Origin: an uncultured Eubacteriales bacterium
GTDB taxonomy: Bacteria; Bacillota; Clostridia; Christensenellales; CAG-138
Direction of reading: 5' to 3'
DNA length: 35,055 nt
Assembly (NCBI GenBank): GCA_902761365.1
Contig: CACWJZ010000022.1
Location: 1 to 35,055 of the forward strand
Shown here piece after piece: positions 11,972-31,965 of the stretch; within the stretch, counting starts at the first letter, position 1, and each line of letters starts with the position of its first letter. Position numbers and translations under genes: made by a program. The notes under the pieces were generated by a model. The model worked only from the letters and a program-made list of their open reading frames with translations. It was not told the DNA's origin and searched no databases.

Positions 11972-12607
11972 TTAGCTGCCCCGAGCGGGGTCCAGGTCGT
12001 AGAGGAGGGCGTTGACGATGCAGGCGGCCACGTTGCTGCCGCCCTTGCGGCCCCGGGCCACGATGCAGGGGACGGAGGTCTCCATGATCAGCTCCTTGGA
12101 CGCCACCACGTTCACGAAGCCCACGGGCACGCCGATGATGAGCTTGGGGCGATAGCCCCCGTCGATGAGCTCCCGCAGGCGGATCAGGGCCGTGGGGGCG
12201 TTGCCGATGGCGAAGATCACGTCGTCGCCCAGGCGGGCAGCCTTGTCCATACAGATGCGGGCCCGGGTGACCCCCAGGCGCCGGGCCTCCGCCGCCACGT
12301 CCTCGTCGGACATGAAGCAGCGGGCCTCGCAGCCAAAGCGAGTAAGGGTTTTCTTATTGATGCCGGCCAGAGCCATCTGGGTATCGGTGACGACGGTAGC
12401 CCCGCCGCGGATGGCCGCCTTGCCGCGGACCACGGCGTCAGGCGAGAAGTACAGGGTGTCGGCGTAGTCGAAGTCCGCCGTGGTGTGGATGACCCGCTTG
12501 AGGATGGGCGCCTGCTCCGGGTCCAGCGGCCGGTCCCCCAGCTCCGCCGTGATGATGCGAAAGCTCTCCTTCTCGATCTCCATGGGCGGCAGATTTTGAA
12601 TGTTCAT
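11972..12607 (-). CDS. cbiC: Cobalt-precorrin-8 methylmutase
   Basis: CbiC moves the C11 methyl group to C12, turning cobalt-precorrin-8 into cobyrinate. It is 211 residues, normal length. The catalytic histidine is His41 in [13 protein letters not shown], and the family blocks [18 protein letters not shown] and GVPVGFVNV...SKELIME are all present. Its start overlaps the cbiP stop by four bases, and it is the last gene of the cobalamin operon before the terminator. Confidence 0.95.
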
Positions 12608-17434: not shown

Positions 17435-18158
17435 GGTCGTACCCCCGGGGCGTGACCATCCTGCCGCCGATGATCCTGGTCTGGGAATTGCCGATGAACA
17501 CGGTGGAGAACATGTCCACCTGGGCGTCCCGCAGGGCCTGCAGGGTCATGGTGCGGATGTTCTCCCCCTCTCGGCCGATGTTTTGCGCCACGCCGCAGAC
17601 GGTCTCCGGGGACGCCGCTTCGAGGACGATCTCGCAGGCCCGGGCCAGATAGTCCTTTCGCTTGTGGCTCGACGGGTTGTAGAGGCAGATGACGAAGTCC
17701 GCCGCGGCCGCCGCCCGAAGCCGCTTCTCGATGGTGGCCCAGGGGGTCATAAGGTCGCTCAGGCTGATGACGGCAAAGTCGTGCATCAGGGGGGCCCCCA
17801 GGATGGCGGCGCCGCTGAGGACCGCGGACACGCCGGGGACGGTCACCACCGCCACACCGGGGTGCTTCGCCGCAAGCTCCTCGCAAAGGCCGCTCATGCC
17901 GTAGACCCCGGGGTCGCCGCTGCAGACCATAGCCACGGTCTTGCCCTTCGCCGCCTCGGCGAGTGCCAGCTCCACCCGCTCCACCTCCCGGCGCATGGGG
18001 GTGGTCAAAAAGGTCTTGTCCGGGAAACGGTCCTTCACCAGGTCCACGTAGACCGTGTAGCCCACGATCACGTCGCTCTCCTCCAGGGCCCGGGCGGCCT
18101 CGTACGTCATGCCCTCGACCTTGCCGGGGCCGATGCCCACCACATACAGCTTACTCAA
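17427..18158 (-). CDS. cbiH: Cobalt-precorrin-3B C17-methyltransferase
   Basis: CbiH methylates C17 and performs ring contraction on cobalt-precorrin-3. The protein is 243 residues with the start taken as TTG at 18158, because GGAGGAGG lies at good distance and LYVVGIGPG is where family members begin; an ATG at 18191 would add eleven mostly basic residues inside cbiG. SAM-binding and family motifs are GIGPG, VCSGDPGVYGMSG, VTVPGVSAVLSGAA and CLYNPSSHKRK. It overlaps cbiG by eight bases and the fusion gene by eight bases. Confidence 0.93.
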   Translation of the reverse strand: MSKLYVVGIGPGKVEGMTYEAARALEESDVIVGYTVYVDLVKDRFPDKTFLTTPMRREVERVELALAEAAKGKTVAMVCSGDPGVYGMSGLCEELAAKHPGVAVVTVPGVSAVLSGAAILGAPLMHDFAVISLSDLMTPWATIEKRLRAAAAADFVICLYNPSSHKRKDYLARACEIVLEAASPETVCGVAQNIGREGENIRTMTLQALRDAQVDMFSTVFIGNSQTRIIGGRMVTPRGYDHD

Positions 18159-19179
18159 ATCGGATCGCCTCCTCCTTCTTGGCCAGGGCAAAGGTCATGC
18201 CGTCCTTCGCCACCTTTCGCACCGCCAACGTCCCGCCGGACGCCAGCACCGCCGCCCGCTCGCACACCGAATCCACGCCCGTCACCTCCTGCACGAAGGC
18301 GGAGGGGGTGAAGTCCCCGGGGGCAGCTTTCAATTCTTCCGCCGAATAGGTCACAAAGGGCAGGCCCAGCTTTTGGCTGAGGGCCGCCAGCCCCGGCTCG
18401 TCCTTCTTCAAATCGATGCTGCCGAGGGCCCTGAGCTCATGGAGCCCCACGCCGCATTTCTGCAAGTTGTCCAGCAAAAACATTTCCAACTCCTCCGCAC
18501 TCTTGCCCCGGCGGCAGCCAAGGCCCACGGCATAGGGTCGGGGTGTGAGCCGCAGGGTCCGGGGAAAGGGCTGGCCGTTTCCTGCCGAAACGTATATGCC
18601 CAGGTCCGCGTCCCCTGTGGTCAGGCCCATAGGCAGCGCGCCCTCCACGGGAAGATCGGAGCGAAAGCCCACCTTCTCCCCCGCCAGCAAAGCGGCGGAG
18701 ACGGCCTTGCAGAGGGCCATGCTCTCGATATGCAGGCCGTTTGCTTTGGCGAACACGTCCACGGCAAAGAGGCCGTTCACGTCCGTGGCCGTGGTCAGCA
18801 CGGGGGTGGCGTGCAGTTGGTTCGCCACGTCCAGCGCCAAAGCGTTCGCCCCGCCCAGATGCCCGCTGAGCAGGGGGATCACGAACCGGCCGCCCTCGTC
18901 CAGCACCAGCACCGCCGGGTCCGTCCGCTTGTCCCGCACATGGGGGGCGATGACCCGGACGGCGATGCCGGAGGCGCAGCAGAACAGCAGGGCGTCCGCC
19001 TCCGCAAAGCCCGCCCCGGCCCAGTCCGCCCCGGACCGGGTCAAGGGTTCGTCCCCGTCGCCGCAGAACTTGGGGAGGGCGAAGGTCCGACAATCGTGGC
19101 CTGCCCCTTTCAAAATTTCCGCCGCACGCGCCGCCAGGGCCCGGCCCCGGGCGGTGTAGGAAATGAGCCAGATGGTCAT
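18151..19179 (-). CDS. cbiG: Cobalt-precorrin-5A hydrolase
   Basis: CbiG opens the lactone ring of cobalt-precorrin-5A and releases acetaldehyde, a step that marks the anaerobic pathway. The protein is 342 residues. It has the N-terminal CbiG domain (IWLISYTARGRALA), the central block with DKRTDPAVLVLDEGGRFVIPLLSGHLGGAN (the strongest family signature, split here by position about residues 85-115), and a C-terminal CobE/GbiG-like domain beginning VGLGCRRGKS and ending LAVRKVAKDGMTFALA. It starts after AAGGAGTGATCT, three bases beyond the cbiF stop. Confidence 0.94.
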   Translation of the reverse strand: MTIWLISYTARGRALAARAAEILKGAGHDCRTFALPKFCGDGDEPLTRSGADWAGAGFAEADALLFCCASGIAVRVIAPHVRDKRTDPAVLVLDEGGRFVIPLLSGHLGGANALALDVANQLHATPVLTTATDVNGLFAVDVFAKANGLHIESMALCKAVSAALLAGEKVGFRSDLPVEGALPMGLTTGDADLGIYVSAGNGQPFPRTLRLTPRPYAVGLGCRRGKSAEELEMFLLDNLQKCGVGLHELRALGSIDLKKDEPGLAALSQKLGLPFVTYSAEELKAAPGDFTPSAFVQEVTGVDSVCERAAVLASGGTLAVRKVAKDGMTFALAKKEEAIRFE

Positions 19180-19182
19180 AGA

Positions 19183-19941
19183 TCACTCCTTGGCCGGCCG
19201 ATATTCCGTGGAGAAGGTGGGATCATAGAGCCTGGAGCGGGCGTAGCCGCTCTGCTGCACCGCGTCCCCCACGATGATCAGCGCCGTCTTGGAAATACTG
19301 TTCTCCTTGGCGCAGTCCGCCAGGGTGGATACGGTGCACAGGCACCTCTTCTCGTCGGGCCAGCTGGCCTTGTAGACGATGGCCGCCGGGGTGTCGGGGC
19401 CGTAGCCTCCCGCCAGCAGCTCTGCCTGTGTCTCTCGCAGCAGGCCGGCGCTCAGAAACAGGACCATGGTGGCCCCGTGGGCGGCGAAGGACCGAACGCT
19501 CTCCCGCTCGGGCACCGCGGTCCGCCCCGCCATGCGGGTGATGACGACGCTCTGGGAAACCTCCGGCAGGGTGTACTCCATCTTCAGGGCCGCCGCCGCC
19601 CCGGAGAAGGCGCTGACGCCGGGGCAGTAGTCGTAATCGACGCCCCGCTTGTCCAGCTCGTCCATCTGCTCCCGGATGGCCCCGTAGAGGCAGGGGTCCC
19701 CGGTGTGGAGGCGCACGGTGGAAAGGCCCGCGGCCTCCGCGTCCAGCATGACGGCCAGCACCTCCTCCAAGGTCATTTTGGCGCTGTTGTACACACGGCA
19801 GCCTTCTTTTTTATACTCCAGTAGCGCCGGATTCACCAGGGAACCGGCATAGATGATCACGTCCGCCTGCTCCAGCAGGGCCTTGCCCCGCACGGTGATG
19901 AGATCGGCCGCCCCGCAGCCCGCGCCTACAAAATGGATCAT
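19183..19941 (-). CDS. cbiF: Cobalt-precorrin-4 C11-methyltransferase
   Basis: CbiF methylates C11 of cobalt-precorrin-4. The protein is 252 residues, normal size. The start at 19941 (MIHFVGAGCGAADL) has GGAGAAAGAGCT upstream; a longer frame reaching into cbiD is not supported. Motifs are VGAGCGAADLITVRG, YAGSLVNPALL, LHTGDPCLYGAIREQMDEL, CPGVSAFSGAAAAL and the TRMAGRT loop, which separates CbiF/CobM from the other methylases. It overlaps cbiD by four bases. Confidence 0.95.
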   Translation of the reverse strand: MIHFVGAGCGAADLITVRGKALLEQADVIIYAGSLVNPALLEYKKEGCRVYNSAKMTLEEVLAVMLDAEAAGLSTVRLHTGDPCLYGAIREQMDELDKRGVDYDYCPGVSAFSGAAAALKMEYTLPEVSQSVVITRMAGRTAVPERESVRSFAAHGATMVLFLSAGLLRETQAELLAGGYGPDTPAAIVYKASWPDEKRCLCTVSTLADCAKENSISKTALIIVGDAVQQSGYARSRLYDPTFSTEYRPAKE

Positions 19942-21101
19942 AGCTCTTTCTCCTTCCCCTCTCCCCTTGTTTTCAGCCATTCTTTGGCCGCACCGGCGGC
20001 GCACAGAGGCCCATAGCCATCCGAGAACACCAGCACGCCCACGGTCAAAAGGTCCTTCACCCGGGCGCTCACATACAGCTCTATCCGCTGGGCCATGTGC
20101 TCCATGGCCGGGGCCAGCAGCCCCTTCTCCCGCAGGATGCGCAGCATCTCGTCCGTGGTGACGCAATCAAGGATGGCCCGGGCCGTGTCGGCGTCGCATC
20201 CCGCCCGGAGCGCGCAGGCGGCCATGAGCTCCGCCCGGCCGTCGCCCTCCCGGGAGTGGGTGTTCATGATGCCGCCGGAAAGCTTGATGAGCTTGCCGAT
20301 ATGGCCCGCCAGCAGCACCTTGGAAAACCCCGCCTCCGCCGCGGCGTCCAGGGCCCGGCCGATGAAGTTGGAAACCTTGACGATGCGGTCCTCGCCCACG
20401 CCGAAGGTGTCCCTGAGAAAGTCCGTGCCGTAGTTGCCCGGGGCCAGGATCAGGCGCTCGTCCCCCAGGGCCTTGCGCTGGCGAATCTCCAGGCGGATGC
20501 TGTCGATCAGCGCCTCCTCGCTCATGGGCTCCACGATGCCGCTGGTGCCCAATATGGAGATGCCGCCCACGATGCCCAGCCGGGGGTTGAAGGTCTTCGC
20601 CGCCAGGGCTGCCCCTTCGGGCACCGAGATCACCACGTCCAGTCCCGGCACGGGCTCCCCTTCCTCCAGGGCCTCCCGGACCGCCTGCTCGATCATGGCC
20701 CGGGGGCCGGGGTTGATGGCCGCCGCGCCTACATGCACCTTGAGCCCGGGCTTTGTCGCCCGGCCCACGCCCTCGCCGCCGTCGATATGGATGCCCTGGG
20801 TGGCGCTGACGCGGACCTGGGCGCACACCAGGGCCCCGTCGGTCACGTCCGGGTCGTCGCCGCTGTTCTTGCGGACGGCGCAGCGGGCAGCGTCGCCTTC
20901 CCGCTTCGATTCTTCGATAGGCAGCCGCAAGTCGATGCCCTTGGGGGTGTGTATCTTCACTGCCACAGGCGCTTGGCCCGTGAGCAGCAGCAGGGCAGCC
21001 GCCTTGGCCGCCGCCGCCGCGCAGGTGCCGGTGGTGTAGCCGAAGCGGAGCTTTTTCCCGTCCACCAGGGCGTAATGGCCCTCTATGCCCGTCTCAAACA
21101 C
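19938..21101 (-). CDS. cbiD: Cobalt-precorrin-5B C1-methyltransferase
   Basis: CbiD methylates C1 of cobalt-precorrin-5B and occurs only in the anaerobic pathway. The protein is 387 residues. It begins with the family signature LRFGYTTGTCAAAAAKAA (18-35) and continues with GGEGVGRATKPGL, GGISILGTSGIVEPMSEEA and LAGHIGKLIKLSGGI. The start codon is GTG at 21101, with GGAGGAGGCGC just upstream inside the end of cobD; the two genes overlap by eight bases. Confidence 0.95.
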   Translation of the reverse strand: MFETGIEGHYALVDGKKLRFGYTTGTCAAAAAKAAALLLLTGQAPVAVKIHTPKGIDLRLPIEESKREGDAARCAVRKNSGDDPDVTDGALVCAQVRVSATQGIHIDGGEGVGRATKPGLKVHVGAAAINPGPRAMIEQAVREALEEGEPVPGLDVVISVPEGAALAAKTFNPRLGIVGGISILGTSGIVEPMSEEALIDSIRLEIRQRKALGDERLILAPGNYGTDFLRDTFGVGEDRIVKVSNFIGRALDAAAEAGFSKVLLAGHIGKLIKLSGGIMNTHSREGDGRAELMAACALRAGCDADTARAILDCVTTDEMLRILREKGLLAPAMEHMAQRIELYVSARVKDLLTVGVLVFSDGYGPLCAAGAAKEWLKTRGEGKEKEL

Positions 21102-22146
21102 GCAGCGCCTCCTCCATGGTCCTCAACAGTTCCTCGTTCTCCGCCCGGGTGCGGACGGCGATGCGGCAGTCGTCCGCCTGCAAGCCCCGATAGTTTCCGC
21201 AATCCCGGATGAGCACGCCCTGACCGAGCAGCTTCCCATACAGCCCGGGCACCCCCGTGACGAAGAGGAAGTTGGCGTCCCCCGGCAGCACGCCCAGGCC
21301 CAGCTGGGTCAGCCGCCCATACAGCCAGGGCTTCTCCGCCTGGAACAGGGCTCGGGCCCGCTGCGGCCAGTCGGGGCAAGAGAGGGCCGCGAGGCCCGCC
21401 GCCTGGGCGGGGGTGGATACGTTCCAGGGCTGGGAGAGGCGGCTCATCCTCTCCAGCAGCGCCCCATCCTTGCAGAGGCCGTAACCCAGGCGCAGGCCCG
21501 CCATGCCGTAGGCCTTGGTGAAGGCCCTGAGCAGGAAGACCCGGTCTCCCGCCGCCAGATGCTCCGCCAGGGAGAAGGCCTTGTCCTCGTCCACCAGCTC
21601 CAAAAAGCACTCGTCCAAAAACAGCCAGGTCCCCGTCTTGCGGCACCGATCCAGGATAGCAAGCAACAGTTCCCGGGGCACGGACCGGCCCGTGGGGTTG
21701 TTGGGGGAGCAGAGCATCAAAAGGTCCGTGTCGGGGCCGATGGCGTCCAAAATGTCCGGGCCCAGCAAAAAGCCGTTCTCCCGCTGAAGGGGGTAGAAGG
21801 TCGGCTCGCAGCCCGCCGCCACGAGAGCGCTCTCGTAGTCCGCGAAGGAGGGCACCGGGAGCAGCGCCTTCTTCGGCTGCAGGGCCGCGGCGAACTGGTA
21901 GATCAGCTCCGCCGCCCCGTTGCCGCAGATGACGTTCTCCCGCGTCACCCCGTTCACCGCCGCCAGCTTCTCCCGCAGGGGGCCGCAGCAGGGGTCGGGA
22001 TAGGCGGAGAGGCCCTCTGCCGCCGCCCGGACCGCCGCCCGCACCGCCTCCGGGGTGCCGAAGGGGTTCACGTTGGCGGAAAAGTCTAGGCGGATGGGGC
22101 GGGAATAGATGTCGCCCCCGTGGACGTAACCCTTGTCGAGGATCAT
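21094..22146 (-). CDS. cobD: L-threonine-O-3-phosphate decarboxylase (PLP enzyme)
   Basis: CobD makes (R)-1-aminopropan-2-yl phosphate, the linker between the corrin ring and the nucleotide loop. The protein is 350 residues and belongs to the class-I/II aminotransferase fold. It has HGGDIYSR and LDFSANVNPFG at the start (typical of CobD rather than HisC), the SPNNPTG loop (147-153), FLDECF, and the PLP Schiff-base lysine Lys211 in AFTKAYGMAGLRLGY. A histidinol-phosphate aminotransferase is the only close alternative, but the N-terminal signature and the location between cbiD and cbiB favour CobD. Confidence 0.93.
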   Translation of the reverse strand: MILDKGYVHGGDIYSRPIRLDFSANVNPFGTPEAVRAAVRAAAEGLSAYPDPCCGPLREKLAAVNGVTRENVICGNGAAELIYQFAAALQPKKALLPVPSFADYESALVAAGCEPTFYPLQRENGFLLGPDILDAIGPDTDLLMLCSPNNPTGRSVPRELLLAILDRCRKTGTWLFLDECFLELVDEDKAFSLAEHLAAGDRVFLLRAFTKAYGMAGLRLGYGLCKDGALLERMSRLSQPWNVSTPAQAAGLAALSCPDWPQRARALFQAEKPWLYGRLTQLGLGVLPGDANFLFVTGVPGLYGKLLGQGVLIRDCGNYRGLQADDCRIAVRTRAENEELLRTMEEALRV

Positions 22147-23120
22147 AGCAGTGCCCCTCCCAGCAGCAGGATCATCCCATAGAGAGCCAGCAGCAACAGG
22201 TTGGTCCCGTACATCAGAATGCAGGCCCGCGCCACGTCCGCCCGCTCTATGGGCCGGAGCGGGTCCCCGATGGTGGGCTTCTCATGGAGCTTGCCGAAGT
22301 AGCTGGCGTTGCCGCCCAGCTGCACGCCCAAGGCCCCGGCGCAGGCGGACTCGGTCTGGGCGGAGTTGGGGCTGGCGTGGTTGCGCCGATCCCGCCGCCA
22401 CACACGCAAGGCGCCTTTCCCGTCCAGCCGCAGCAGAAAGGCCGCGCCGATCATGGCGAGGGCCGACAGCCGGGCGGGGACATAGTTCACTACGTCGTCG
22501 AATTTGGCGGCGCAGCGGCCGAAATGCAAATATCTGTCGTTCTTATAGCCCACCATGGAGTCCATGGTGTTCACGGCCTTGTAGAAGAGCCCGCCCGCAG
22601 CGCCGAAGAGGACCATCCAAAAGAGGGGGGCCACCACCCCGTCGGAGGTGTTCTCGGCCACGGTCTCCACGGCAGCCTTCACCACCTGGGGTTCCGTCAG
22701 ACTGTCCGTGTCCCGGCCCACCAGCATCCCCACCTGGCGGCGGCCGGCGGAAAGACCCTCCTTTTCCAGGCAGGTCACCACCTTCTTCGCCTCCGCCATC
22801 AAACACCGGGCGGCGAAGCACTGCCAGCAGAGAAAGGCGCTCACAGCGAAGTAAGCCCAGGGGTGGACCCGCCAGGCCAGATACAGCAGCAGAAGGCCCG
22901 CGCCTGTGCTGATGAGGGGCACCGCCAGGGCCATGATGGTCCCCGCGGTCCGCTCGCCCGGGGGCGTCTGGGGGAACCGGGGGCGCAGCTGCTTTTCAAA
23001 CAGAGAGATCAGCTTACCCATGAGCACCACGGGATGCAGGCGGCTCAGGGGGTCCCCCAGCAGGCAATCCAGCCCGAACCCTGCGAAGACGGACAGAGCG
23101 GTGAGGGCATAGAGGTTCAT
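22143..23120 (-). CDS. cbiB: Adenosylcobinamide-phosphate synthase (integral membrane)
   Basis: CbiB joins the aminopropanol (phosphate) arm made through CobD to adenosylcobyric acid. The protein is 325 residues. The start at 23120 (MNLYALTALSVFAGFGLDCLLGDP) is chosen because GLDCLLGDPLSRLHPVVLMGK is the conserved N-terminal block; longer frames run into the ATPase gene. It has several membrane helices and the conserved loop segments RDTDSL, ETVAENTSDGVVAPLFW and NTMDSMVGYKNDRY. It overlaps the ATPase gene and cobD by four bases each. Confidence 0.95.
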   Translation of the reverse strand: MNLYALTALSVFAGFGLDCLLGDPLSRLHPVVLMGKLISLFEKQLRPRFPQTPPGERTAGTIMALAVPLISTGAGLLLLYLAWRVHPWAYFAVSAFLCWQCFAARCLMAEAKKVVTCLEKEGLSAGRRQVGMLVGRDTDSLTEPQVVKAAVETVAENTSDGVVAPLFWMVLFGAAGGLFYKAVNTMDSMVGYKNDRYLHFGRCAAKFDDVVNYVPARLSALAMIGAAFLLRLDGKGALRVWRRDRRNHASPNSAQTESACAGALGVQLGGNASYFGKLHEKPTIGDPLRPIERADVARACILMYGTNLLLLALYGMILLLGGALL

Positions 23121-24256
23121 GGCGCTTCCCCTCCCGTCCAAAGGTCGCTGAGCCGGTCCAAAGGCAGGAGCTTGCCCCGGGCCGCCGCCTCGTCCCGCAG
23201 GATGCGGTTGCCCTCGTTCGTGGTTCCAAATCCATCCAGGCAGCAGACCACATGGGCACAGGTCGAAATCAGCGCCCGCACCCTGTCCATGGCCGCCTCG
23301 CCGACGGGCGTGAAGGCGGGCACGGACACCGTCTCCACGGCCAACGCCCGGGCCACCCCGTAGTCCACATCGTTCTCGGCCAGCACGCCCGCGGCGAAGG
23401 GTACGCCCCGCCGCTGCAGGGCCCGGTAGACGGGGATGCCGCTGCCGGCGCCGCCGATGACGAAGACGCGGGGCTCGCCCGGTACCCGCGCCATCTCCAG
23501 GGAGCCGAAGAGGGCGTTGTAGCTGCCCTTCTCCATGCCGTAGAGGGCTTCGATGTATTCGTTGGTAAAGATCTCCTCCGGCGTGCCGCACCGGTCCACG
23601 GCGTTGTTGGCCACGCAGACCACCCGGTCGGAGATCTTTTGCGCCAGATCCAGCTCGTGGAGGGACATCAATACGGCCACGTTCCGCTCCCGGACCAGCC
23701 CCTTCAATATCTCCAGCAGCTCCAGCTTGTGCTTCACGTCCAGGAAGGAGGTGGGCTCGTCCAGCACGATGACCTCCGGCTCCTGGCAGACCGCCCGGGC
23801 AAGGAGCAGCCGCTGCCGCTGCCCGTCGCTGATCTGGTGAAAGGGCCGCTGGGCGAACGCCTCCCCGTGGACCAGGGCAATGGCCTCCTGCACGATGGCT
23901 TTGTCCGCTTTGGTCAGGATGCCCAGGCGGCCCGTGTAGGGGTAGCGGCCCGTGGCGACCACGTCCTCGCCGGTCATGAGCTCCGCCCGGAGCCGCTCGG
24001 TCATGACGATGGCCATCTTGCGGGCGATCTCCCCCTCCCCCATGGCGGCCATGGGCCGGCCGTCCAGGACGACCATGCCCGCCAGGAGCTTGAGCTGGCA
24101 GATCATGCTCTTCAGAATGGTGGATTTGCCGGAACCGTTGGGTCCGATGAGGGTCAATATCTCCCCCCGACGGACGCCGATCTCGATGTCGCGGATGAGG
24201 GGCACCCCGTCGTAGCCCACGTCCATATGCTCGGTGCGAATGTACCAGGTATCCAT
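23117..24256 (-). CDS. Iron/corrinoid-type ABC transporter ATPase with an extra C-terminal domain
   Basis: The protein is 379 residues, about 120 longer than a plain FecE/BtuD ATPase. Residues 1-240 are the nucleotide-binding domain: Walker A GPNGSGKS (38-45), signature ISDGQRQRLLLARA (142-155), Walker B VIVLDE (162-167) and the switch histidine His200. Residues about 245-379 form a second domain that starts with RVFVIGGAGSGIPVYRAL (263-280), a Rossmann-like glycine loop, and continues with AAGVLAENDVDYGVARAL and CCLDGFGTTNEGN. I have the impression that similar extensions occur in clostridial heme/iron ATPases, but I do not know a function. It pairs with the FecCD permease just upstream and the binding protein, and precedes cbiB with a four-base overlap. 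Corrinoid, heme or metal-chelate uptake is inferred. Confidence 0.88.
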   Translation of the reverse strand: MDTWYIRTEHMDVGYDGVPLIRDIEIGVRRGEILTLIGPNGSGKSTILKSMICQLKLLAGMVVLDGRPMAAMGEGEIARKMAIVMTERLRAELMTGEDVVATGRYPYTGRLGILTKADKAIVQEAIALVHGEAFAQRPFHQISDGQRQRLLLARAVCQEPEVIVLDEPTSFLDVKHKLELLEILKGLVRERNVAVLMSLHELDLAQKISDRVVCVANNAVDRCGTPEEIFTNEYIEALYGMEKGSYNALFGSLEMARVPGEPRVFVIGGAGSGIPVYRALQRRGVPFAAGVLAENDVDYGVARALAVETVSVPAFTPVGEAAMDRVRALISTCAHVVCCLDGFGTTNEGNRILRDEAAARGKLLPLDRLSDLWTGGEAP

Positions 24257-24265
24257 GGGCCCTCC

Positions 24266-25273
24266 TTACAGGTTTTCCTTCTGCCGTCTGAGCATGACCA
24301 GGATCACCACCGGCGCTCCGAACAGGGCCGTGACGGAGCTGATGGACAGCTCCGTGGGCGCGAAGGCCGTCCGGGCGATCAGGTCACATAGAAGGCAGAA
24401 CACCGCCCCGCCCAGGAAGCAGGCGGGGATCATGACGAGGGGCTTGGCGGTCTTGAAGATGCTGCGAACGAGATGGGGCACCGCCACGCCCACGAAGGAG
24501 ATGGGGCCCGCGAAGGCCGTGACCGCGGCGGAGAGGACGCTGGACAGGAGGATCAGGGCCGCCCGGAAGGCGCGGACGTTGACGCCCATGTTCTGGGCAT
24601 AGACCTCCCCCAGCTGGTAGGCGCTGATGGGCTTGCTGAGCAGGAAGGCCGCAACCAGGGCCGGCAGGATCACCGCGGCCATGACGCCCACGTTGCTCCA
24701 GGTGATGCCAGAAAAGCTGCCCAGCGACCAGTGGTGGAGGTTGATGATGTTGGCGTCGTCGGCGAAGGTGATGACGAAGTCCGTCACGGCGGAACAGATA
24801 TAGCCGATCATGACGCCGGAGATGATGAGCAATGACATCCGCTTGACCTTGGAGGAGATCAGCAGTACGAAGCTCATGGACAGCATGGCCCCCACGAAGG
24901 AGGCCAGGATAAGGGCGATGGACCCCACGGCCACGCCCCGGGAGAGGAAGCCGATGAGGGTCAGGGACAAAACCAGCTTCGCCCCCGAGGAGATGCCCAG
25001 GATAAAGGGGCCGGCGATGGGGTTGGCAAAGAAGGTCTGCAGCAGAAAGCCAGACAGGGCCAGGGCCCCGCCCAGCAGGGCCGCGGCCAGGATGCGGGGC
25101 AGGCGGATGCTGCGGACGATGACATCGTTGTCGCCGCCCCGCCCCAGGAGGATGGACAGTATCTCCCCCGAGGACACGTGGACGCTCCCCGCGTTCACGT
25201 TCCAGACGATCAGCCCCAGCAGGGCCACCAGGAGGCCCAGAAAGCCGATCCACAGCCGCACCCGTCTATCCAT
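24266..25273 (-). CDS. FecCD/BtuC-family ABC transporter permease
   Basis: The protein is 335 residues with about ten membrane helices, the usual architecture of iron-siderophore, heme and cobalamin permeases. Motifs include RLPRILAAALLGGALALSGFLLQTFFANPIAGPFILGISSGA near the N-terminus (positions about 58-100), the cytoplasmic GPISFVGVAVPHLVR coupling helix, and a TELSISSVTALFGAPVVILVML ending. It lies two bases after the binding-protein gene and nine bases before the ATPase gene. The substrate cannot be read from sequence; B12 control suggests a corrinoid or a cobalt-containing chelate. Confidence 0.92.
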   Translation of the reverse strand: MDRRVRLWIGFLGLLVALLGLIVWNVNAGSVHVSSGEILSILLGRGGDNDVIVRSIRLPRILAAALLGGALALSGFLLQTFFANPIAGPFILGISSGAKLVLSLTLIGFLSRGVAVGSIALILASFVGAMLSMSFVLLISSKVKRMSLLIISGVMIGYICSAVTDFVITFADDANIINLHHWSLGSFSGITWSNVGVMAAVILPALVAAFLLSKPISAYQLGEVYAQNMGVNVRAFRAALILLSSVLSAAVTAFAGPISFVGVAVPHLVRSIFKTAKPLVMIPACFLGGAVFCLLCDLIARTAFAPTELSISSVTALFGAPVVILVMLRRQKENL

Positions 25274-25275
25274 GG

Positions 25276-26445
25276 TCAGTTGCCTCCCGCCGTCAGCTTA
25301 TGCAGATACGTGAGCTCCCCAGGCGCGTTTTCGTCCGTCAGCACCCGGTGCATGTCCAAAATGAGCTTGCCGAGGCCCATGGGCTCCTGGAACAGGTTTT
25401 TGCCCGTGCACCAGACGTTCCCGGTCCGGACGGCCTTGAAGTCCTTCAGAAAGGCGCTCTTTTGCAGGAGCTCCTCCAGGGTGAACAGCTCCCCGTCGAT
25501 GGTGCTGTTGTAGATGAGCAGGTCCGCGTCCTTGGCCCCGTCATAGAAGGATTCCATGGTCATGTTCACGGTGGACAGGGCGCTGCCGCTGCTAAGGTCG
25601 GGGAACACGTAATCGCCCCCCGCAAGGCTGATCATCCGGGGCACATAGTCGTCGCTCTTGCGCACGTTCACGGTGCCGGTGGCGGTGATGTAGAAGAAGG
25701 CCACGGTCTTGCCGGTTTGGGGCTGATCGAGCAACGGTTCCACCGCCTTGACCTCCCCGTCGAACAGCTTCTCCGCCTCCTCGAGCTTGCCCAGCAGGGC
25801 GCCGTAGACCTTGATCCACTCCATGCGGCCCAGGGGGTCCTCCTCGTAGCTGCTGCGCTCCACCAGCACGGGGACGCCCAGCTTCTCCAGCTGCTCCTTT
25901 ACCTCAGGGCTGTGATAGATCATGGTGGACTCGATGGCGAGGTCGCACTTCTCCGCGAAGATCAGCTCGTAGTCGGGGGCGCTGTACTTGCCCGCGAAGC
26001 GCATGGCGCCGCTACTCAGGGCGTCCTTGGCCTCCTGGATGTACCAGCCGTTGACATCCGTGCCGGAGAGGCGGATGGCGGGCACGCTGCCCAGGGCCCG
26101 GAAGAAGTCCATGGAGGAGGTGGCGGCCAGGTACATCCTGTCGAGCGGAGCGTGGAGCGGGACCACGTCAGCGTCCAGCCCCTGGGGCACCCCGGCCCCC
26201 GCGGGGACGATCAAAAACCGGCCGCTGGTGGGGATGTCCAGCAGGGTGTAGCCCTGATCGTACTCCGTCAGGGAAAACTGGGTGGCGTGCTGCAAGGGCA
26301 CCTGCCGCACCACGGAAAAGGTGCTCCAGTCGGGGCCGGCGGCTTGCGTCTGAGCCGTTTTTTCCCCGTTGCATCCCGAAAAGAGCCCCAGCACTAAGGC
26401 TCCCAGGAGCAGCAGGCAGATGATCCTTTTCGTCAGCATCTTCAT
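25276..26445 (-). CDS. ABC transporter substrate-binding lipoprotein (metal-chelate/corrinoid class)
   Basis: The protein is 389 residues. The signal peptide MKMLTKRIICLLLLGALVLG ends in lipobox LFSGC with Cys25, so it is attached to the outer face of the membrane. The mature part follows the two-lobe, single-helix-linker fold of class III binding proteins: VVPLHAPLDRMYLAATSSMDF, then CDLAIESTMI and VLVERSSYEEDPLGRMEWIKVYGALLG (the connecting segment, about 185-215), and a second lobe with LAGGDYVF. It overlaps the small lipoprotein gene by four bases and is followed by its permease and ATPase. Ligand unknown. Confidence 0.9.
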   Translation of the reverse strand: MKMLTKRIICLLLLGALVLGLFSGCNGEKTAQTQAAGPDWSTFSVVRQVPLQHATQFSLTEYDQGYTLLDIPTSGRFLIVPAGAGVPQGLDADVVPLHAPLDRMYLAATSSMDFFRALGSVPAIRLSGTDVNGWYIQEAKDALSSGAMRFAGKYSAPDYELIFAEKCDLAIESTMIYHSPEVKEQLEKLGVPVLVERSSYEEDPLGRMEWIKVYGALLGKLEEAEKLFDGEVKAVEPLLDQPQTGKTVAFFYITATGTVNVRKSDDYVPRMISLAGGDYVFPDLSSGSALSTVNMTMESFYDGAKDADLLIYNSTIDGELFTLEELLQKSAFLKDFKAVRTGNVWCTGKNLFQEPMGLGKLILDMHRVLTDENAPGELTYLHKLTAGGN

Positions 26446-26849
26446 TTGCCGGAGGCCGCCAGGGAGGCGGCGTCAAAGGTGATCGTATACTCGATCTCAT
26501 GGGGCGCGCTCATGGCCACCGTGTCCGCCACCACAGGGAGAGGTTCCTCCAGGGAAGCTACGGGCACGGTGAACGCCGAATGGCCGTCCTCGATCACGGC
26601 GTCGTAGCGGACGCCGTTCACCTTCATATAATCGTAGTTGGCGCTGCTCCAGACGAGGGTGGCCGTGATCTTGCCGTCCTGGACCGTGAGCTGCAGGGGG
26701 GAGGCGATCTTCGCCTTGCCGGTGCCGCCGTTCAGGGTGGCGGCCACGGTGTAGGTCCCGTCCGCCAGGGCCTTGGCCTTCTTCTCACAGCCCGCGGCCA
26801 GCGCCAGCAGCAGGAGCACAAGCGCGATGCAAAGCGTCTTCCTTCTCAT
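26442..26849 (-). CDS. Small lipoprotein with a DGTY/NEAT-like domain
   Basis: The protein is 135 residues. The start at 26849 (MRRKTLCIAL) is supported by AAAGGA eight bases upstream; a second ATG lies three codons earlier. Lipobox LAAGC places the lipidated cysteine at residue 21. The mature protein is a single beta-rich domain: DGTYTVAATLNGGTGKAKI, LTVQDGKITATLVWSSANYDYMKVNG, and EIEYTITFDAASL. The core pattern DGTY...LTV.DGK reappears in the C-terminal domain of the neighbouring CbiK-like protein, and the overall order of strands recalls NEAT heme-binding domains, but the YxxxY heme motif is not obvious (HEIEY instead). It probably helps pass ligand to the ABC transporter encoded just downstream; this is inference. 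Confidence 0.8.
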   Translation of the reverse strand: MRRKTLCIALVLLLLALAAGCEKKAKALADGTYTVAATLNGGTGKAKIASPLQLTVQDGKITATLVWSSANYDYMKVNGVRYDAVIEDGHSAFTVPVASLEEPLPVVADTVAMSAPHEIEYTITFDAASLAASGK

Positions 26850-26962: not shown

Positions 26963-28207
26963 TTACGCCTCGGGCACGGGGTTGGTGACGATGACCTTGT
27001 GGTCGTACCACTTGCCGGCCTTGCCGATGAGGGCCAGGTCGAACTCCTCGCCGATGGCGGGCACCTCAACGTCGAAACCAAAGACCTCCTCGGTGGTGCC
27101 GTCGTCATAGGTCACGGTGTCCACCGTGGGCTGCAGCCAAACGGCGCCCTCCTTCTGGGCGTCCTCCTTGAGGCCGGGGAACAGGTTCACGATGTTCTTG
27201 GAGGTCAGGCTGATGTGAATGACCATCTTGCCGTCCTTCACGGTCAGGGTGCCCTGGCCATTCTGGGTCTCGTTCACCTTGAACATGGAGCTGTCCAGGC
27301 ACTTAAAGGTAGCCTTGTAGGTGCCGTCGGCCAGGACGGAGGCGGCGGTGTCCGCAACGGCCTCCACCTTCAGACCGTTCTCATCCATGGCGGCCTGGGC
27401 GTGGGCCACGTAGATGGCCTGGACGTCCGCAATGGAGCCCATGCCGTTGATCTGGCAGTCGATCTTCTCAAAGAGCTTGGACGCGGTGAACTGGCTCACC
27501 CAGGACTCCTCATCCTCGGGGTCGGCCATGTCGTTGTTGGCGTGATCGCCGGCCACGACCATCAGAGGCCGCAGGATGACCTTGGTGTAGCCCGCCTCGT
27601 TGACGGCTTTGATGATGTTCTCGCAGGCGGTCTCCTCGGGCTCGCCCTCCACGGTGCCGATGAACACGTTCTTGTAGCCCAGCTCATTCATCTGGGTCTG
27701 CATCTGGGAGTAGGTCACCTTCGCCACGTGGGCGGTGCCGTGGCCCATGAGCACGATGGCGGTGCCGTCCTTCTCCAGGGCATCCAGGGACTCGGCCCCG
27801 GCGGCCTTCACCGCGGCCTCCACCACGGCCTTCGCCACGGTCTCCTTGTCGGTGTTGACCTCGGCGGCGTCCTTGCCCACTTTACCCAGCAGGGGCTCGG
27901 CCACCACCACGTTCATCCTGTCGGCGTACTTCGTGACGGCCTCCACCAGCTCATCATACTCGGCGCCGTGCATGAGGTGGGTAGGCTGGATGACCAGGTT
28001 CTTGACGCCGTTGTTCACAGCCCGCTCCAGGGCCTGGTCCATGTTGTCGATGAACTCCCCGTCCCGGGCCTGGACATGGTTGATGATGATCTGGGCGGTG
28101 AAGGCCCGGCGCACGGCCCAGCCGGGGAACGCGGCTTCGAGAGCCTTCTCGATGCCGCCGATGTCCTCCGCCCGGCTGTCGTTGAAGGACGTGCCGAAGC
28201 TCACCAC
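26963..28207 (-). CDS. cbiK: CbiK-type cobaltochelatase, second tandem copy, with C-terminal DGTY/NEAT-like domain (5' end disrupted)
   Basis: CbiK inserts cobalt into sirohydrochlorin in the anaerobic pathway. The 414 residues here hold a complete CbiK domain (1-270) with QPTHLMHGAEY, the metal-site MGHGTAH (His156 and His160) and VAGDHANNDMADPEDEESW (His222). Residues about 290-410 are a beta-rich domain with DGTYKATFKCLDSSMFKV, LTVKDGKMVIHISL and KWYDHKVIV. The GTG at 28207 is only the first possible start after a four-base deletion near 28239; its sequence (VSFGTSFND) is internal to the domain and has no ribosome binding site, so the natural start is the signal-peptide gene at 29536. It is 1023 bases away from, and very similar to, the first copy. 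Whether this copy is translated on its own is doubtful. Confidence 0.82.
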   Translation of the reverse strand: MVSFGTSFNDSRAEDIGGIEKALEAAFPGWAVRRAFTAQIIINHVQARDGEFIDNMDQALERAVNNGVKNLVIQPTHLMHGAEYDELVEAVTKYADRMNVVVAEPLLGKVGKDAAEVNTDKETVAKAVVEAAVKAAGAESLDALEKDGTAIVLMGHGTAHVAKVTYSQMQTQMNELGYKNVFIGTVEGEPEETACENIIKAVNEAGYTKVILRPLMVVAGDHANNDMADPEDEESWVSQFTASKLFEKIDCQINGMGSIADVQAIYVAHAQAAMDENGLKVEAVADTAASVLADGTYKATFKCLDSSMFKVNETQNGQGTLTVKDGKMVIHISLTSKNIVNLFPGLKEDAQKEGAVWLQPTVDTVTYDDGTTEEVFGFDVEVPAIGEEFDLALIGKAGKWYDHKVIVTNPVPEA

Positions 28208-28701
28208 CAGCAGCTCGTTTTCACCGATGCCGTCCGCACAAAGTAGTCGGGATCGGCTTCTTCACCCTCGACCAGCTCCTTCTGAGCGTCGGTCAGGGCG
28301 TCCCAGGCGGCCTTGGCGGCGGCGCACTGGGCGTCGGTGTCCTCGGTCCGCTGCTGGACGTAGATGGCGTCGATCAGGGCGCCCACCCGCTTGCCGGCTT
28401 CCTCGTCGGTCTCATTGGCGGGCTTCATGGCGTAGACGGCGGCCTTGGCGTGGTCTACATAGAGCTTCTGGACGGCCTCGATCCGGCCCAGGCCCTCGAT
28501 CTGGCAGTCGATCTGTTCGAACTTGCCGGAGGCGGTGAACATGCTCAGCCAGGATTCCTCGTCCTCGGGATCGGCCATGTCGTTGTTGGCATGGTCGCCG
28601 GCGACCACCATCAGGGGCCGCAGGATGACCTTGGTGTAGCCCGCGGCGCTGACGGCCTCGATGACGGCCTCGCAGGCGGTCTCCTCGGGCTCGCCCTCCA
28701 C
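28201..28701 (-). pseudogene. Out-of-frame middle of the tandem CbiK gene
   Basis: This frame carries the second half of the first CbiK copy (EGEPEETACEAVIEA, VAGDHANNDMADPEDEESW) and then the helical linker of the second copy (ALIDAIYVQQR, WDALTDAQKELVEGE, DPDYF). It is separated from the first half by a 29-base deletion at about 28700-28710 and from the second CbiK domain by a four-base deletion at about 28239. It has no credible start of its own. Confidence 0.75.
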
Positions 28702-29536
28702 GTTCTTTCATCTGGGTCTGCATCTGGGAGTAGGTCACCTTCGCCACGTGGGCGGTGCCGTGGCCCATGAGCACGATGGCGGTGCCGTCCTTCTCCGCGG
28801 CATGGAGGCTGGAGAACCCGGCCGCCTTCACGGCCTCGGCCACCACGGCTTCCGCCACGGCCTGCTTGTCGTTGTTCACGGCGGCGGCGCTGGCGCCCAC
28901 CTTGCCCAGCAGGGGCTCAGCCACGGTCACGGTGGCGAACTTGTCCGCGTACTTGGTCACGGCCTCCACCAGCTCGTCGTACTCGGCGCCGTGCATGAGG
29001 TGGGTGGGCTGGATGACCAGGTTCTTGACGCCGTTGTTCACGGCACGCTCCAGGGCCTGGTCCATGTTGTCGATGAACTCCCCGTCCCGGGCCTGGACGT
29101 GATTGATGATGATCTGGGCGGTGAAGGCCCGGCGCACGGCCCACTCCGGGAACGCCGCTTCAAGAGCCTTCTCGATGCCGCCGATGTCCTCCGCCCGGCT
29201 GTCGTTGAAGGACGTGCCGAAGCTCACCACCAGCAGCTCGTTTTCACCGATGCCGTCCGCACGGCCAAAGTAGTCGGGATCGGCGAACTCGCCCTCGACG
29301 AGCTCCTTCTGGGCGTCAGTCAGGGCGTCCCAAGCGGCCTTGGCGGCGGCGCAGTCCGCGTCGGTGGTCTCCGTCCGCTGCTGGACGTAGATGGCGTCAA
29401 TCAGAGCGGCCACCTTGGCGGCGGCAGCCTTATCGGCCTCAGAGGGCTCCTCTCCCTCCGCCATGGCGGGCAGCGCCGTCACGCCGACCACAGCCAGCAT
29501 GACGAGGGCCAGAAACAGTGCGATCTTTCTTTTCAT
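28412..29536 (-). CDS. cbiK: Exported CbiK-type cobaltochelatase, first tandem copy (frameshifted, truncated)
   Basis: The start at 29536 has AGGAGG and follows the riboswitch leader. A cleavable signal peptide (MKRKIALFLALVMLAVVGVT..., cut after AMA at residue 26) sends the protein out of the cell. Residues about 36-90 form a helical linker with ALIDAIYVQQR and AKAAWDALTDAQKELV, resembling repeats of Gram-positive surface proteins. A CbiK domain follows from about residue 98 with FGTSFNDSR, QPTHLMHGAEYDEL and MGHGTAH (His259, His263). After TYSQMQTQMKE (residue 278) a 29-base deletion relative to the second copy shifts the frame, and the remaining 97 or so residues are Arg/Gly-rich nonsense to the stop at 28412. 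The second metal-site histidine is therefore lost from this product. If both indels were restored, the locus would encode one chain of about 868 residues with two chelatase domains. Confidence 0.8.
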   Translation of the reverse strand: MKRKIALFLALVMLAVVGVTALPAMAEGEEPSEADKAAAAKVAALIDAIYVQQRTETTDADCAAAKAAWDALTDAQKELVEGEFADPDYFGRADGIGENELLVVSFGTSFNDSRAEDIGGIEKALEAAFPEWAVRRAFTAQIIINHVQARDGEFIDNMDQALERAVNNGVKNLVIQPTHLMHGAEYDELVEAVTKYADKFATVTVAEPLLGKVGASAAAVNNDKQAVAEAVVAEAVKAAGFSSLHAAEKDGTAIVLMGHGTAHVAKVTYSQMQTQMKERGGRARGDRLRGRHRGRQRRGLHQGHPAAPDGGRRRPCQQRHGRSRGRGILAEHVHRLRQVRTDRLPDRGPGPDRGRPEALCRPRQGRRLRHEARQ

Positions 29537-29618
29537 TGGTTCCTCCTCCTGTTTTTTCTTGGGACGCCTGAGCATCCCCCGATGTATGTGATGCGTACAT
29601 CAGCAAGATCCACGGCAC

Positions 29619-30115: not shown

Positions 30116-30763
30116 ATGGCGAAGATACTGATCGTAGAGGACGAAAAGGCCATCAACGATTTGCTGAAGCTGAATCTGGAGATGGTGGGCCACCAGTGCG
30201 TGTCCGCCCTGACGGGCCGGGACGCCATCCACGCCGCGGGGGAGCAGGGATTCGACCTGATGCTCCTCGACGTGATGCTGCCGGACATGGAGGGCTTCGG
30301 GGTCATGGAGAAGGTGCGGGACGTGCCCACCATCTTCCTCACCGCCCGGGGTGCCACCACCGACAAGGTCCGGGGCTTCGGCCTGGGCGCCGACGACTAC
30401 ATCGTGAAGCCCTTCGAGGTGGCGGAGCTCCTCGCGCGGGTCCAGGCGGTCCTTCGGCGGACCCATCGGGAGGAAACGGAGTACAGCATCGACGATCTGG
30501 TCATCCGTTGGAACGCCCATGAGGTCTTCTTGCGGGGGGAGCGGGTGGACCTGACGCCCCAGGAGTTCACGCTCCTGCACATCCTCATCGAGAATCGGAA
30601 CGTGTGCCTCAGCCGGCAAAAGCTCCTTTCCGAGGCCTGGGGCACGGACTTTCTGGGCGAGAGCCGGACCGTGGACGTGCACATCCAGAAGCTCCGGCGG
30701 AAGCTGGATCTGGACGACCATATCAAGACCATCTACAAGAACGGCTACCGTTTCGAGGAATAA
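30116..30763 (+). CDS. OmpR/PhoB-family response regulator
   Basis: The protein is 215 residues. The receiver domain (1-115) has the acidic pocket Glu8-Asp9, phospho-acceptor Asp52 (LLDVMLPDMEG), Thr76 and Lys98 (VKPF). The C-terminal winged-helix domain (about 120-213) has LTPQEFTLLHIL, the recognition helix region ESRTVDVHIQKLRRKL and the final YKNGYRF wing. It is the first gene of the unit, with GAGAGGGAAAAC before the start, and is followed by its histidine kinase after a 71-base gap that contains a dispersed repeat. The direct repeats in its own promoter suggest autoregulation. Confidence 0.93.
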   Translation: MAKILIVEDEKAINDLLKLNLEMVGHQCVSALTGRDAIHAAGEQGFDLMLLDVMLPDMEGFGVMEKVRDVPTIFLTARGATTDKVRGFGLGADDYIVKPFEVAELLARVQAVLRRTHREETEYSIDDLVIRWNAHEVFLRGERVDLTPQEFTLLHILIENRNVCLSRQKLLSEAWGTDFLGESRTVDVHIQKLRRKLDLDDHIKTIYKNGYRFEE

Positions 30764-30773
30764 GCCCCCCGTT

Positions 30774-30817
30774 TGTCATCCTGAGCGAGCGAAGCGAGTC
30801 GAAGGACCTCTGAACAC
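30774..30817 (+). repeat. Dispersed repeat, copy D, between the regulator and kinase genes
   Basis: TGTCATCCTGAGCGAGCGAA...GTCGAAGGACCTCTGAACAC matches copies A-C around the GIY-YIG gene. It fills most of the gap between two genes that should be co-transcribed and leaves the kinase with only a weak ribosome binding site (AGGCAG). Confidence 0.85.
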
Positions 30818-30834
30818 AAAAAGGCAGTACACCC

Positions 30835-31965
30835 ATGAAACTCTGGCAAAAAACCTATCTGCTGTCCACCCTCCTCTGCGCCCTGATCCTCTACGGGTGC
30901 ATGTTCGGCGTCACCGCGCCGGCCCTCACCGCCACCGTGAAGGGGGCCACGGACACCGCCCTGCGGGAGGAGCGGGCCATCGCCGGCGCCCTGGAGGTGA
31001 CCATGGCCAAGGCGCCGGAGGGGCGGCAGATCCCGGTGCTGCGCACGTTTTTGGACTACTACGCCAACACGGGCCTGACCTTTCAGGTGACCCAATCGGC
31101 AGCTCCCCTGTACAGCACCCTGCCCTTCCCCGTGGACAAGGCCCCCGGCACCGTGGGCTTCCTCCGGGAGCAGGGGCGGCTGTACCTCTTCGTCAGCGAC
31201 CGGCTCCCCTCGGGCTTTGAACTCCTGTACATGAAGGAGGCGGCGGCCACGGACGCCCTGCTCAAGCGCCAGGTCACGGCGGCGGCCCTCACCGGCACCC
31301 TGGTAGCCCTGGTCATGGCCGCGGCCCTCTACGCCCTCCTCTACCGGGTCAACCTGCCCGTGAGCCGGTTGGCCCACGAGATGCGTACGCCGCTGACCGC
31401 CATGAAGGGCTACGCCGAGACCCTGCGGGACGTGAAGCTCTCCGAGGAGCAGCAGTACATGGCGGCCAGCTATATCGCCGAGGAGAGCACCCGGCTCTCC
31501 AACATCTCCGCCCGGCTCCTGACCCTCCACAACGCCCGGGAGGAAAGTACCCCCTTCGGCCCCGTGGACGTGGAGGAGCTCTTCGACCACATCCGGCAGA
31601 CCTACCCCACCGTGACCTATGCGGTCCGCTGGCCCACTCTGTTCGGGGACCGGGCCATGCTCTCCTCCCTCCTCAACAACCTGGTGGACAACGCCGTGAA
31701 GGCGTCCCCGGCGGGGGCGCCCGTGGAGCTCCTGGCCGCGCCCAACGTGCTCACGGTCACGGACCACGGCCGCGGCATGACCGACGAGGCCCTGAACTAC
31801 GTGAACCACCCCTCCAAATTCAAGAAGCTGCACCCCACCGGGGGCCTGGGCGTGCCCCTCTGCCACCAGATCGCCAAAGCCCACGGGGCCAAGCTCACCT
31901 TCGCCCGGGGCGCGGACGGGGGGACCGTGGCCACGTTGACCTTTTACAACTCCCTTACAAGTTGA
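30835..31965 (+). CDS. Membrane sensor histidine kinase
   Basis: The protein is 376 residues. Two membrane helices (about 7-29 and 147-169) enclose an extracytoplasmic sensor region of about 115 residues. There is no clear HAMP domain: the second helix runs nearly straight into the H-box LAHEMRTPLTAMKGYAE with phospho-acceptor His181. The ATPase part has the N-box LLNNLVDNAVKA (279-290), G1 TDHGRGM (309-315) and a GGLGVPLC G2 loop (336-343). It is the partner of the upstream regulator. The sensed signal is unknown. Its last codons overlap the operator repeats of the next gene. Confidence 0.92.
   Translation: MKLWQKTYLLSTLLCALILYGCMFGVTAPALTATVKGATDTALREERAIAGALEVTMAKAPEGRQIPVLRTFLDYYANTGLTFQVTQSAAPLYSTLPFPVDKAPGTVGFLREQGRLYLFVSDRLPSGFELLYMKEAAATDALLKRQVTAAALTGTLVALVMAAALYALLYRVNLPVSRLAHEMRTPLTAMKGYAETLRDVKLSEEQQYMAASYIAEESTRLSNISARLLTLHNAREESTPFGPVDVEELFDHIRQTYPTVTYAVRWPTLFGDRAMLSSLLNNLVDNAVKASPAGAPVELLAAPNVLTVTDHGRGMTDEALNYVNHPSKFKKLHPTGGLGVPLCHQIAKAHGAKLTFARGADGGTVATLTFYNSLTS

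Follow-up and report, generated by a model that had tools for sequence, protein, structure and literature searches.

Exported CbiK proteins of Clostridia suggest that a scavenged B12 ring precursor is loaded with cobalt outside the cell

We analyzed a stretch of 35,055 nucleotides from an uncultured Eubacteriales bacterium (Christensenellales; CAG-138; contig CACWJZ010000022.1 of assembly GCA_902761365.1), which is called the window below. On its minus strand, the window carries a gene for an exported protein with two domains of the cobaltochelatase CbiK (from the start codon at 29536 to the stop at 26963). The gene opens a cobalamin (B12) biosynthesis operon that is preceded by a cobalamin riboswitch, and it adjoins an ATP-binding cassette (ABC) importer. 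The gene, its relatives and the genomes that encode them suggest that some gut and rumen bacteria that are seemingly unable to make the ring precursor of B12 take the ring from outside and add cobalt to it before import. We consider it somewhat probable that the module captures a tetrapyrrole outside the cell, loads it there with cobalt and imports it into the corrin pathway. More tentatively, and with rather less confidence, we propose that many Clostridia have moved cobalt insertion outside the cell, where an exported CbiK, often fused to NEAT-like domains and via these to the binding protein of the importer, would load a scavenged sirohydrochlorin-like ring that is then imported and converted to B12.

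In this proposal, the exported CbiK would be encoded by the first gene of a module that supplies cobamide synthesis with a tetrapyrrole by capturing it, loading it with metal and importing it. Cobalamin riboswitches permit reading of their operon when B12 is short, and the module would thus be read at low B12. CbiK would leave the cytoplasm via a Sec signal without lipobox in the genus of the window and as a lipoprotein in most relatives. NEAT-fold domains on CbiK, on a separate lipoprotein or on the importer's binding protein would bind a tetrapyrrole from outside the cell (sirohydrochlorin or precorrin-2 stage), and CbiK would put cobalt into this ring outside the membrane. The cobalt-tetrapyrrole would then pass via a BtuF-like protein and a FecCD/BtuCD-type importer to CbiL and the remaining corrin pathway. 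We infer the catalytic activity, the substrate, the insertion outside the cell and the cargo of the importer from the features described below.

The exported tandem CbiK gene

The gene (26963 to 29536, minus strand) starts with MKRKIALFLALVMLAVVGVTALPAMA, which resembles a Sec signal peptide without lipobox (29459 to 29536; sequence and hydrophobicity scan). The first CbiK domain (28435 to 29236) contains a gap of 29 bases near 28700 and is matched by Pfam family PF06180 in two pieces (28697 to 29236 and 28435 to 28704; 129.4 and 72.6 bits). The second domain (27386 to 28213) scores 210.8 to 216 bits. All scores exceed the cut-off of 26.2 bits and chance is excluded as their source. The NCBI equivalog model for sirohydrochlorin cobaltochelatase (NF047852) gives 160 bits for the frame of the second domain, under its cut-off of 400. 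A sequence-only reading of this DNA had proposed the signal peptide, the two CbiK domains and their spacing of 1023 bases, and these features were all recovered.

In departure from that description, the window copy is no single open frame. It is split into three frames (28412 to 29575, 28201 to 28701, and 26963 to 28207), and four intact same-genus genes are longer at three points, by 36, 29, and 40 bases. Each of these gaps in the window copy adjoins an end of one of the two longest exact repeats that the copies share (100 and 90 bases). Gaps one and three are located where the 100-base repeat starts in copies one and two, respectively, and gap two where the 90-base repeat stops. Both linkers of the DTGDASKDDPRN type that are conserved in relatives fall inside gaps, and the repeat distance of 1023 bases compares with 1089 to 1092 bases in the intact relatives. 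Since the gaps abut the longest repeats, which is typical of short-read assemblers at unresolved repeats, the frame breaks are probably assembly errors rather than true mutations. The genome of the window (G000) is 69% complete.

The combination of signal peptide, two CbiK domains and C-terminal domain (CT) was found intact in four same-genus genomes, where both CbiK domains lie in one open frame (G002, 942 amino acids (aa); G003, 941 aa; G004, 908 aa; G008, 941 aa). The tandem form of the gene is therefore not an artefact. Two further copies in the genus are broken (G007 and G009), one is cut by contig ends (G006), and the same-genus search did not find the exported gene in G001, G005, and G011. 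G010 encodes a form of 540 aa with one CbiK domain. The sequence-only reading had regarded a single cytoplasmic CbiK at this locus, or an assembly artefact, as evidence against it. The form in G010 is indeed single, yet it is exported and not cytoplasmic. An assembly fault may account for the frame breaks in the window; the tandem itself is real in the other genomes.

Distribution of the exported CbiK family

The exported CbiK family is widespread in Clostridia, usually with a single and sometimes with a tandem CbiK. The sequence-only reading had expected a double-domain surface form in a Gram-positive to be unusual, but the family is no rarity: at least 593 confirmed stretches encode a relative. 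Among the best 80 of these (loci L022 to L101, from named genomes), an export signal precedes CbiK in 79, the remaining one (L025) being cut. Export was called with a rule based on hydrophobicity and lipobox, plus inspection by eye. The simple rule, which miscalls some lipoproteins as Sec type, assigned 66 of the 80 loci to lipoproteins and 13 to the Sec type, with one cut off; the genus of the window has the Sec-type signal without lipobox and most relatives are lipoproteins. Three other loci flagged by the rule (L203, L154, and L264) were discarded as false, uncertain or fragmentary; no export group includes L154, L264, L265, or the short matches (G060, G085, G192, and others).

In 79 of the best 80 loci (the other is cut), a conserved segment some 65 residues long (LIDAIYVQ... 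to DPDYFGRDTGDASKDDPxN...) lies before CbiK, and its acidic end could bind metal. Exported CbiKs with this segment are termed type A (in L150 and L151, just its last part is present); the short lipoprotein CbiKs are termed type B. Of 393 genomes drawn across the class, 121 matched CbiK at E ≤ 0.001. Sorting by N-terminus gave 11 type A and 16 type B genomes, the rest being cytoplasmic, fragmentary or weak. A draw at the level of the order added G002, G008, G090, G177, G058, and G094 to type A and G030 to type B.

Two CbiK domains occur in one frame in eight of the best 80 loci, with the order CbiK-CbiK-CT in five, CbiK-CbiK in two and CbiK-CT-CbiK in one. The latter, unusual order is encoded by a frame of 931 aa that starts at position 7476 of L071. 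Because L023 stems from the same genome as G004 (identical domains), these are seven further tandem loci. The two copies of L066 pair together in a tree of CbiK domains, as do those of L037, which indicates that the duplication took place more than once or that the copies were homogenized.

The tree comprises 135 domains, including 42 of type A, a part of those known. Type A forms one group (support 92/50). Twelve of 17 type B rows stand beside it in a supported clade (98/93), together with four rows counted as cytoplasmic. The other five type B rows are placed with or close to cytoplasmic CbiKs, which means that export had more than one origin; three of these five lipoproteins belong to genomes without the early-pathway enzyme HemC (G536, G286, and G223) and two to genomes with HemC and a second CbiK (G481 and G030). 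The genome of the window also encodes a cytoplasmic CbiK (positions 9810 to 10604 of L130, which is G000:C3:22000-41999). It falls inside the exported clade and adjoins two Peripla_BP_2 proteins, BtuCD-like ABC genes and a CGGC protein.

Absence of HemC and CobA

No HemC was found in the 12 same-genus genomes (controls positive in 11/14), and none of the 12 had a CobA match over the cut-off (controls 11/14). The best match to CysG/Met8 in these genomes reached 27.9 bits, compared with 83 to 110 bits for Met8-type proteins elsewhere; the candidates (20 to 28 bits) lie in frames of 434 to 497 aa, which appear TrkA-like by eye in G000, or of 535 to 996 aa, and were rejected. CbiX was likewise rejected as a second chelatase of the genus, since the CbiX matches are the CbiKs themselves. 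With neither HemC nor CobA found, the known route to uroporphyrinogen III and precorrin-2 is closed, whereas the corrin genes are retained. This pattern, no HemC, no CobA and corrin genes present, is one of the marks of precorrin-2 type salvagers. Several of the genus genomes are incomplete. CbiK was found in nine of the 12, with a cytoplasmic copy in G000 and G007 only, and the exported protein is the sole CbiK found in G002, G003, G008, and G010 (90–97% complete).

The class-wide comparison covered 80 genomes with CbiK: 17 with type A, 17 with type B and 46 with cytoplasmic CbiK only (from 68 listed, after prior removal of every third). The 34 exported-form genomes come from the class-wide and order-level draws and exclude G003, G007, and other genus genomes as well as the owners of L022 to L101. 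HemC is absent from 11/17 type A, 11/17 type B, and 5/46 cytoplasmic-only genomes. Pooled, these are 22/34 exported versus 5/46 cytoplasmic-only genomes (Fisher p = 6e-7, uncorrected for kinship). The 22 genomes span ten of the 12 families that hold exported forms. None of them has CobA over the cut-off, and in every one the exported CbiK is the sole CbiK found. CbiC is present in all 34 genomes with an exported CbiK, including these 22.

The 12 genomes with both an exported CbiK and HemC all possess CobA, and each has another candidate for the reaction inside the cell. Eight contain a second, cytoplasmic-looking CbiK, assigned by its N-terminus in G446 (set as cytoplasmic by eye, against the rule), G555, G030, G291, and G394, and by frame length alone in G299, G481, and G523. 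The remaining four (G543, G531, G461, and G414) encode a Met8-type protein (83 to 110 bits) beside HemC and CobA; among the class-wide genomes, Met8 was sought in these four.

Metal site and structure of the CbiK domains

CbiK of Salmonella is a cytoplasmic, single-domain enzyme that acts on a ring made inside the cell. We take E89, H145, and H207 to be its metal-site residues. Type A domains retain the corresponding residues in 113/113, 113/113, and 112/113 (one gap) cases, respectively, some rows representing the same genome twice, and so do 13/13 second copies. The metal-site histidine pair, which the sequence-only reading had wished to see checked, is therefore kept in both copies of the relatives. 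Type A domains have an additional histidine (HLMH) in 104/113 cases; it is present in 1/17 type B and at most 7/76 other domains. We considered this residue (HLMHGAEYD) as an equivalent of His96 of the exported CbiK of Desulfovibrio vulgaris (CbiKP), which is presumably a heme ligand, and ruled it out because the alignment positions differ. The position of His96 is occupied by Asp in the exported family. Structure prediction for the L023 tandem protein gave a model (mean pLDDT 83.6, pTM 0.57) whose best matches are Salmonella CbiK, FetB of Porphyromonas gingivalis and CbiKP.

NEAT-like domains and module fusions

The tandem gene ends in the beta-rich CT domain (26963 to 27358), which scores 17.1 bits with Pfam NEAT (PF05031). 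Next to it lies a gene for a NEAT-like lipoprotein (26442 to 26849, minus strand; start codon set by eye) with 23.1 bits. Scores of such domains range from 17 to 29 bits, all under the cut-off of 32.8, and the CT of L023 gives no PF05031 match at E 0.05. The predicted model of the CT-NEAT protein of L086 (pLDDT 90.6, pTM 0.57) matches both double and single NEAT structures in Foldseek, including IsdH N2N3 (1.5e-7) and single domains, for which TM scores by target length reach 0.67. Hbp2 N2 is matched by the CT end of the L023 tandem model (1.2e-4). From these models of relatives, rather than of the window's own domains, the CT and lipoprotein domains of the window are predicted to adopt a NEAT fold. 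The NEAT-like end put forward by the sequence-only reading thus agrees with the predicted fold of relatives and fails the Pfam cut-off.

The classical heme-ligand motif of NEAT domains is YxxxY. The lipoprotein domain has HxxxY instead: H[ED][IV].Y is present in 66 of 69 domains (a pattern that fixes the His), the others having HLIEY, RLIDY or being cut off (one). The window-type domains thus share a predicted fold with the Isd/Hbp NEAT domains and differ in scoring under the Pfam cut-off, in the HxxxY motif of the lipoprotein and in their B12 context. The modules are also fused to each other. Open frames in the best 80 loci comprise 46 CbiK-CT, ten CbiK-CT-NEAT, six CT-NEAT, 30 NEAT fused to the substrate-binding protein (SBP), and one CT-NEAT-SBP. 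Following gene-fusion logic, these fusions indicate that the chelatase and the binding protein of the importer work together.

The cobalamin riboswitch and the importer

A cobalamin riboswitch (RF00174; 29720 to 29919, minus strand; 93.8 bits with a gathering threshold of 31.5) forms the leader of the operon. A riboswitch of this family lies upstream in 30 of the 33 type A loci scanned (1/1, 8/8, 6/8, and 15/16); the Rfam scan covered 16 of the loci L022 to L101 and, within the genus, only the window, L136, and L140. The three misses are L066 (one riboswitch several kb upstream), L072, and L247. In L258, two divergent cobalamin riboswitches about 125 bases apart (10325 to 10861) lie upstream of an exported CbiK.

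Downstream of the NEAT-like lipoprotein, the minus strand encodes a BtuF-like substrate-binding lipoprotein (25276 to 26445; Peripla_BP_2, 100.2 bits), an ABC permease of the FecCD family (24266 to 25273) and an ABC ATPase (23117 to 24256). The best NCBIfam relatives of the latter two are BtuC and a corrinoid ATPase, respectively, both under the cut-off. Of the best 80 loci, tblastn matched 66 for the NEAT-like part, 62 for the binding protein, 58 for the ATPase, 56 for the permease, and 28 for CbiP, in a set where many loci are cut by contig ends and a few ATPase matches are weak or on the opposite strand.

The sequence-only reading held that a chelatase outside the cell cannot directly serve the pathway inside. 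This is probably wrong, because the gene follows a riboswitch, opens the cbi operon, adjoins an importer and occurs in genomes in which no HemC or CobA was found. Its suggestion that the protein handles cobalt or tetrapyrroles on the cell surface remains the best guess. Altogether, its observation was partly confirmed and its interpretation is partly supported.

Alternative functions of the module

Several findings weigh against external capture and cobalt loading. HemC is present in 12/34 genomes with an exported form, so export does not require loss of HemC, and it is absent from 5/46 cytoplasmic-only genomes; the link is thus not strict. In the genus, three genomes (70–75% complete) show no CbiK at all, and G000 and G007 also carry a cytoplasmic CbiK in another operon, so the exported CbiK is not alone there. 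CbiL, the proposed next step, exceeds the cut-off in only 4/12 genus genomes and was not found in G003, G007, and G010 (90–93% complete). A riboswitch precedes only 7/17 type B loci, with about 1 kb upstream available, and none was found in two loci of the second, cytoplasmic CbiK (20 kb scanned for L130). The ABC components look like those of cobamide importers, and their cargo might be complete corrinoids. The literature examined did not show free sirohydrochlorin in the gut or the rumen; where Shelton et al. (2018; PMC6461909) name compounds in the sections considered here, these are uroporphyrin and 5-aminolevulinic acid (ALA), not free sirohydrochlorin.

Reverse chelation is the first alternative: the exported CbiK and the NEAT domains would pull iron from heme or siroheme, and the importer would take up the iron or the freed ring. 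FetB (also IhtB) is the closest solved relative, the matched NEAT structures are those of heme-binding proteins, and iron removal from heme is the role considered for IhtB of P. gingivalis, a CbiK-like lipoprotein, in the part of PMC10913741 devoted to it. The cobalamin riboswitch and the cbi operon speak against this function, as does the link to missing HemC and CobA in genomes that retain CbiC, which suggests that the ring is wanted for corrin. We therefore consider reverse chelation unlikely. Iron removal from siroheme followed by cobalt insertion would join it with cobalt loading outside the cell.

We judge it similarly unlikely that the exported CbiK merely binds an apo-tetrapyrrole and hands it to the importer, cobalt being inserted inside by other means. 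Uptake would require no more than binding outside the cell, and G000 and G007 retain a cytoplasmic CbiK. However, the metal-site Glu and His residues are kept throughout, and G002, G003, G008, and G010 contain no other CbiK, CbiX or Met8-grade match. Less likely still is import of finished cobamides or cobinamide with CbiK as a corrinoid-binding part. The BtuFCD-like transporter and the riboswitch are the usual signs of such uptake, but it leaves unexplained both the intact metal site and the link between exported CbiK and missing HemC and CobA with a kept corrin-ring gene. Finally, an assembly artefact or decaying gene, as the broken window frame with gaps at repeat ends and the broken copies in G007 and G009 could indicate, is very improbable and is refuted for the tandem form by the open frames in four same-genus genomes and seven more of the best 80 loci.

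Relation to known systems

The best sequence match in the PDB (3.9e-36 for one domain) is IhtB/FetB of P. gingivalis (9b86), likewise an exported CbiK-family lipoprotein encoded with a binding protein and an ABC importer (IhtC-E; PMC10913741, section on this locus). This layout, an exported CbiK beside a binding protein and an ABC importer, was found in the window and in 56 to 62 of the best 80 loci. P. gingivalis likewise lacks the steps to precorrin-2, according to the relevant part of Shelton et al. (PMC6461909). IhtB/FetB differs in belonging to a Gram-negative with a TonB receptor and in being described, in the accounts considered, for heme and iron; the portions of PMC10913741 that treat it mention no NEAT domains, tandem CbiK or cobalamin riboswitch. 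CbiKP of D. vulgaris (2xvx and 2xvz) is likewise an exported CbiK, judged by PDB title. It differs by His96, where the family studied here has Asp, and by a solved chain of 269 residues without NEAT domain. In Desulfovibrio, one B12 element controls cbiK-cbiL and btuCDF, the passage concerned leaving unstated which CbiK is meant (PMC545781). Salmonella CbiK (1qgo) shares the fold (TM score 0.90 by target length) and the metal-site residues.

Tetrapyrrole precursor salvagers were defined by Shelton et al. (2018; PMC6461909), mostly among Firmicutes, with dependence on ALA tested in three species; in the sections on these organisms, uptake of a tetrapyrrole versus a novel route is left open. They likewise have the corrin pathway without its first steps. 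They were named from gene absence, and those same sections describe no uptake machinery or exported chelatase. The precorrin-2 type makes up 0.6% in the figures quoted from a review (PMC8123684). Our search of the open-licence text in PMC, outside which most subscription papers lie, found no account of exported CbiK with NEAT domains in Clostridia. The module is thus a concrete, testable uptake candidate in gut and rumen bacteria for the question left open by Shelton et al. If the proposal is true, it would provide the uptake route of precorrin-2 type salvagers, and NEAT domains would do more than heme uptake, here acting on a B12 precursor rather than on heme. Where a genome counts as that of a B12 producer because it has the genes from CbiK to CbiP, its owner may then need neighbors to supply the ring; the producer rule, as worded in a reconstruction of human gut bacteria (PMC6593275), names CbiK/CbiX and cbi genes without any hem genes. 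Bacteria that make the ring and bacteria that make B12 would then be connected by a common pool of sirohydrochlorin-like rings.

Other genes in the window

The operon continues on the minus strand with the corrin genes. CbiB (22143 to 23591; TIGR00380, 237 bits, over the cut-off) probably has its start codon further in. It is followed by a CobD-like aminotransferase (21094 to 22146; TIGR01140, 269.2 bits with a cut-off of 290.55), CbiD (19938 to 21101; PF01888, 343 bits), CbiF (19183 to 20166; TIGR01465, 330 bits), whose start codon probably also lies further in, and CbiG (18151 to 19179; PF01890, PF11760, and PF11761). A tetrapyrrole methylase (17427 to 18191; PF00590, 147.9 bits) is probably CbiH, by elimination. 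The next frame (15452 to 17434; PF02571, PF00590, and PF13847) encodes CbiJ fused to a methylase and a methyltransferase, probably CbiE-CbiT. Two amidases with PF07685 and PF01656 were named by size and order as CbiA-like (14107 to 15459) and CbiP-like (12604 to 14106), and the row ends with CbiC (11972 to 12607; PF02570, 260.6 bits).

On the plus strand, a response regulator and a histidine kinase gene, recognized by eye, are located at 30116 to 31965, divergent from the operon. A second plus-strand region (7183 to 11305) encodes, in a row, a MoxR-type AAA protein, an unmatched frame of 323 aa and a protein with a transglutaminase core.

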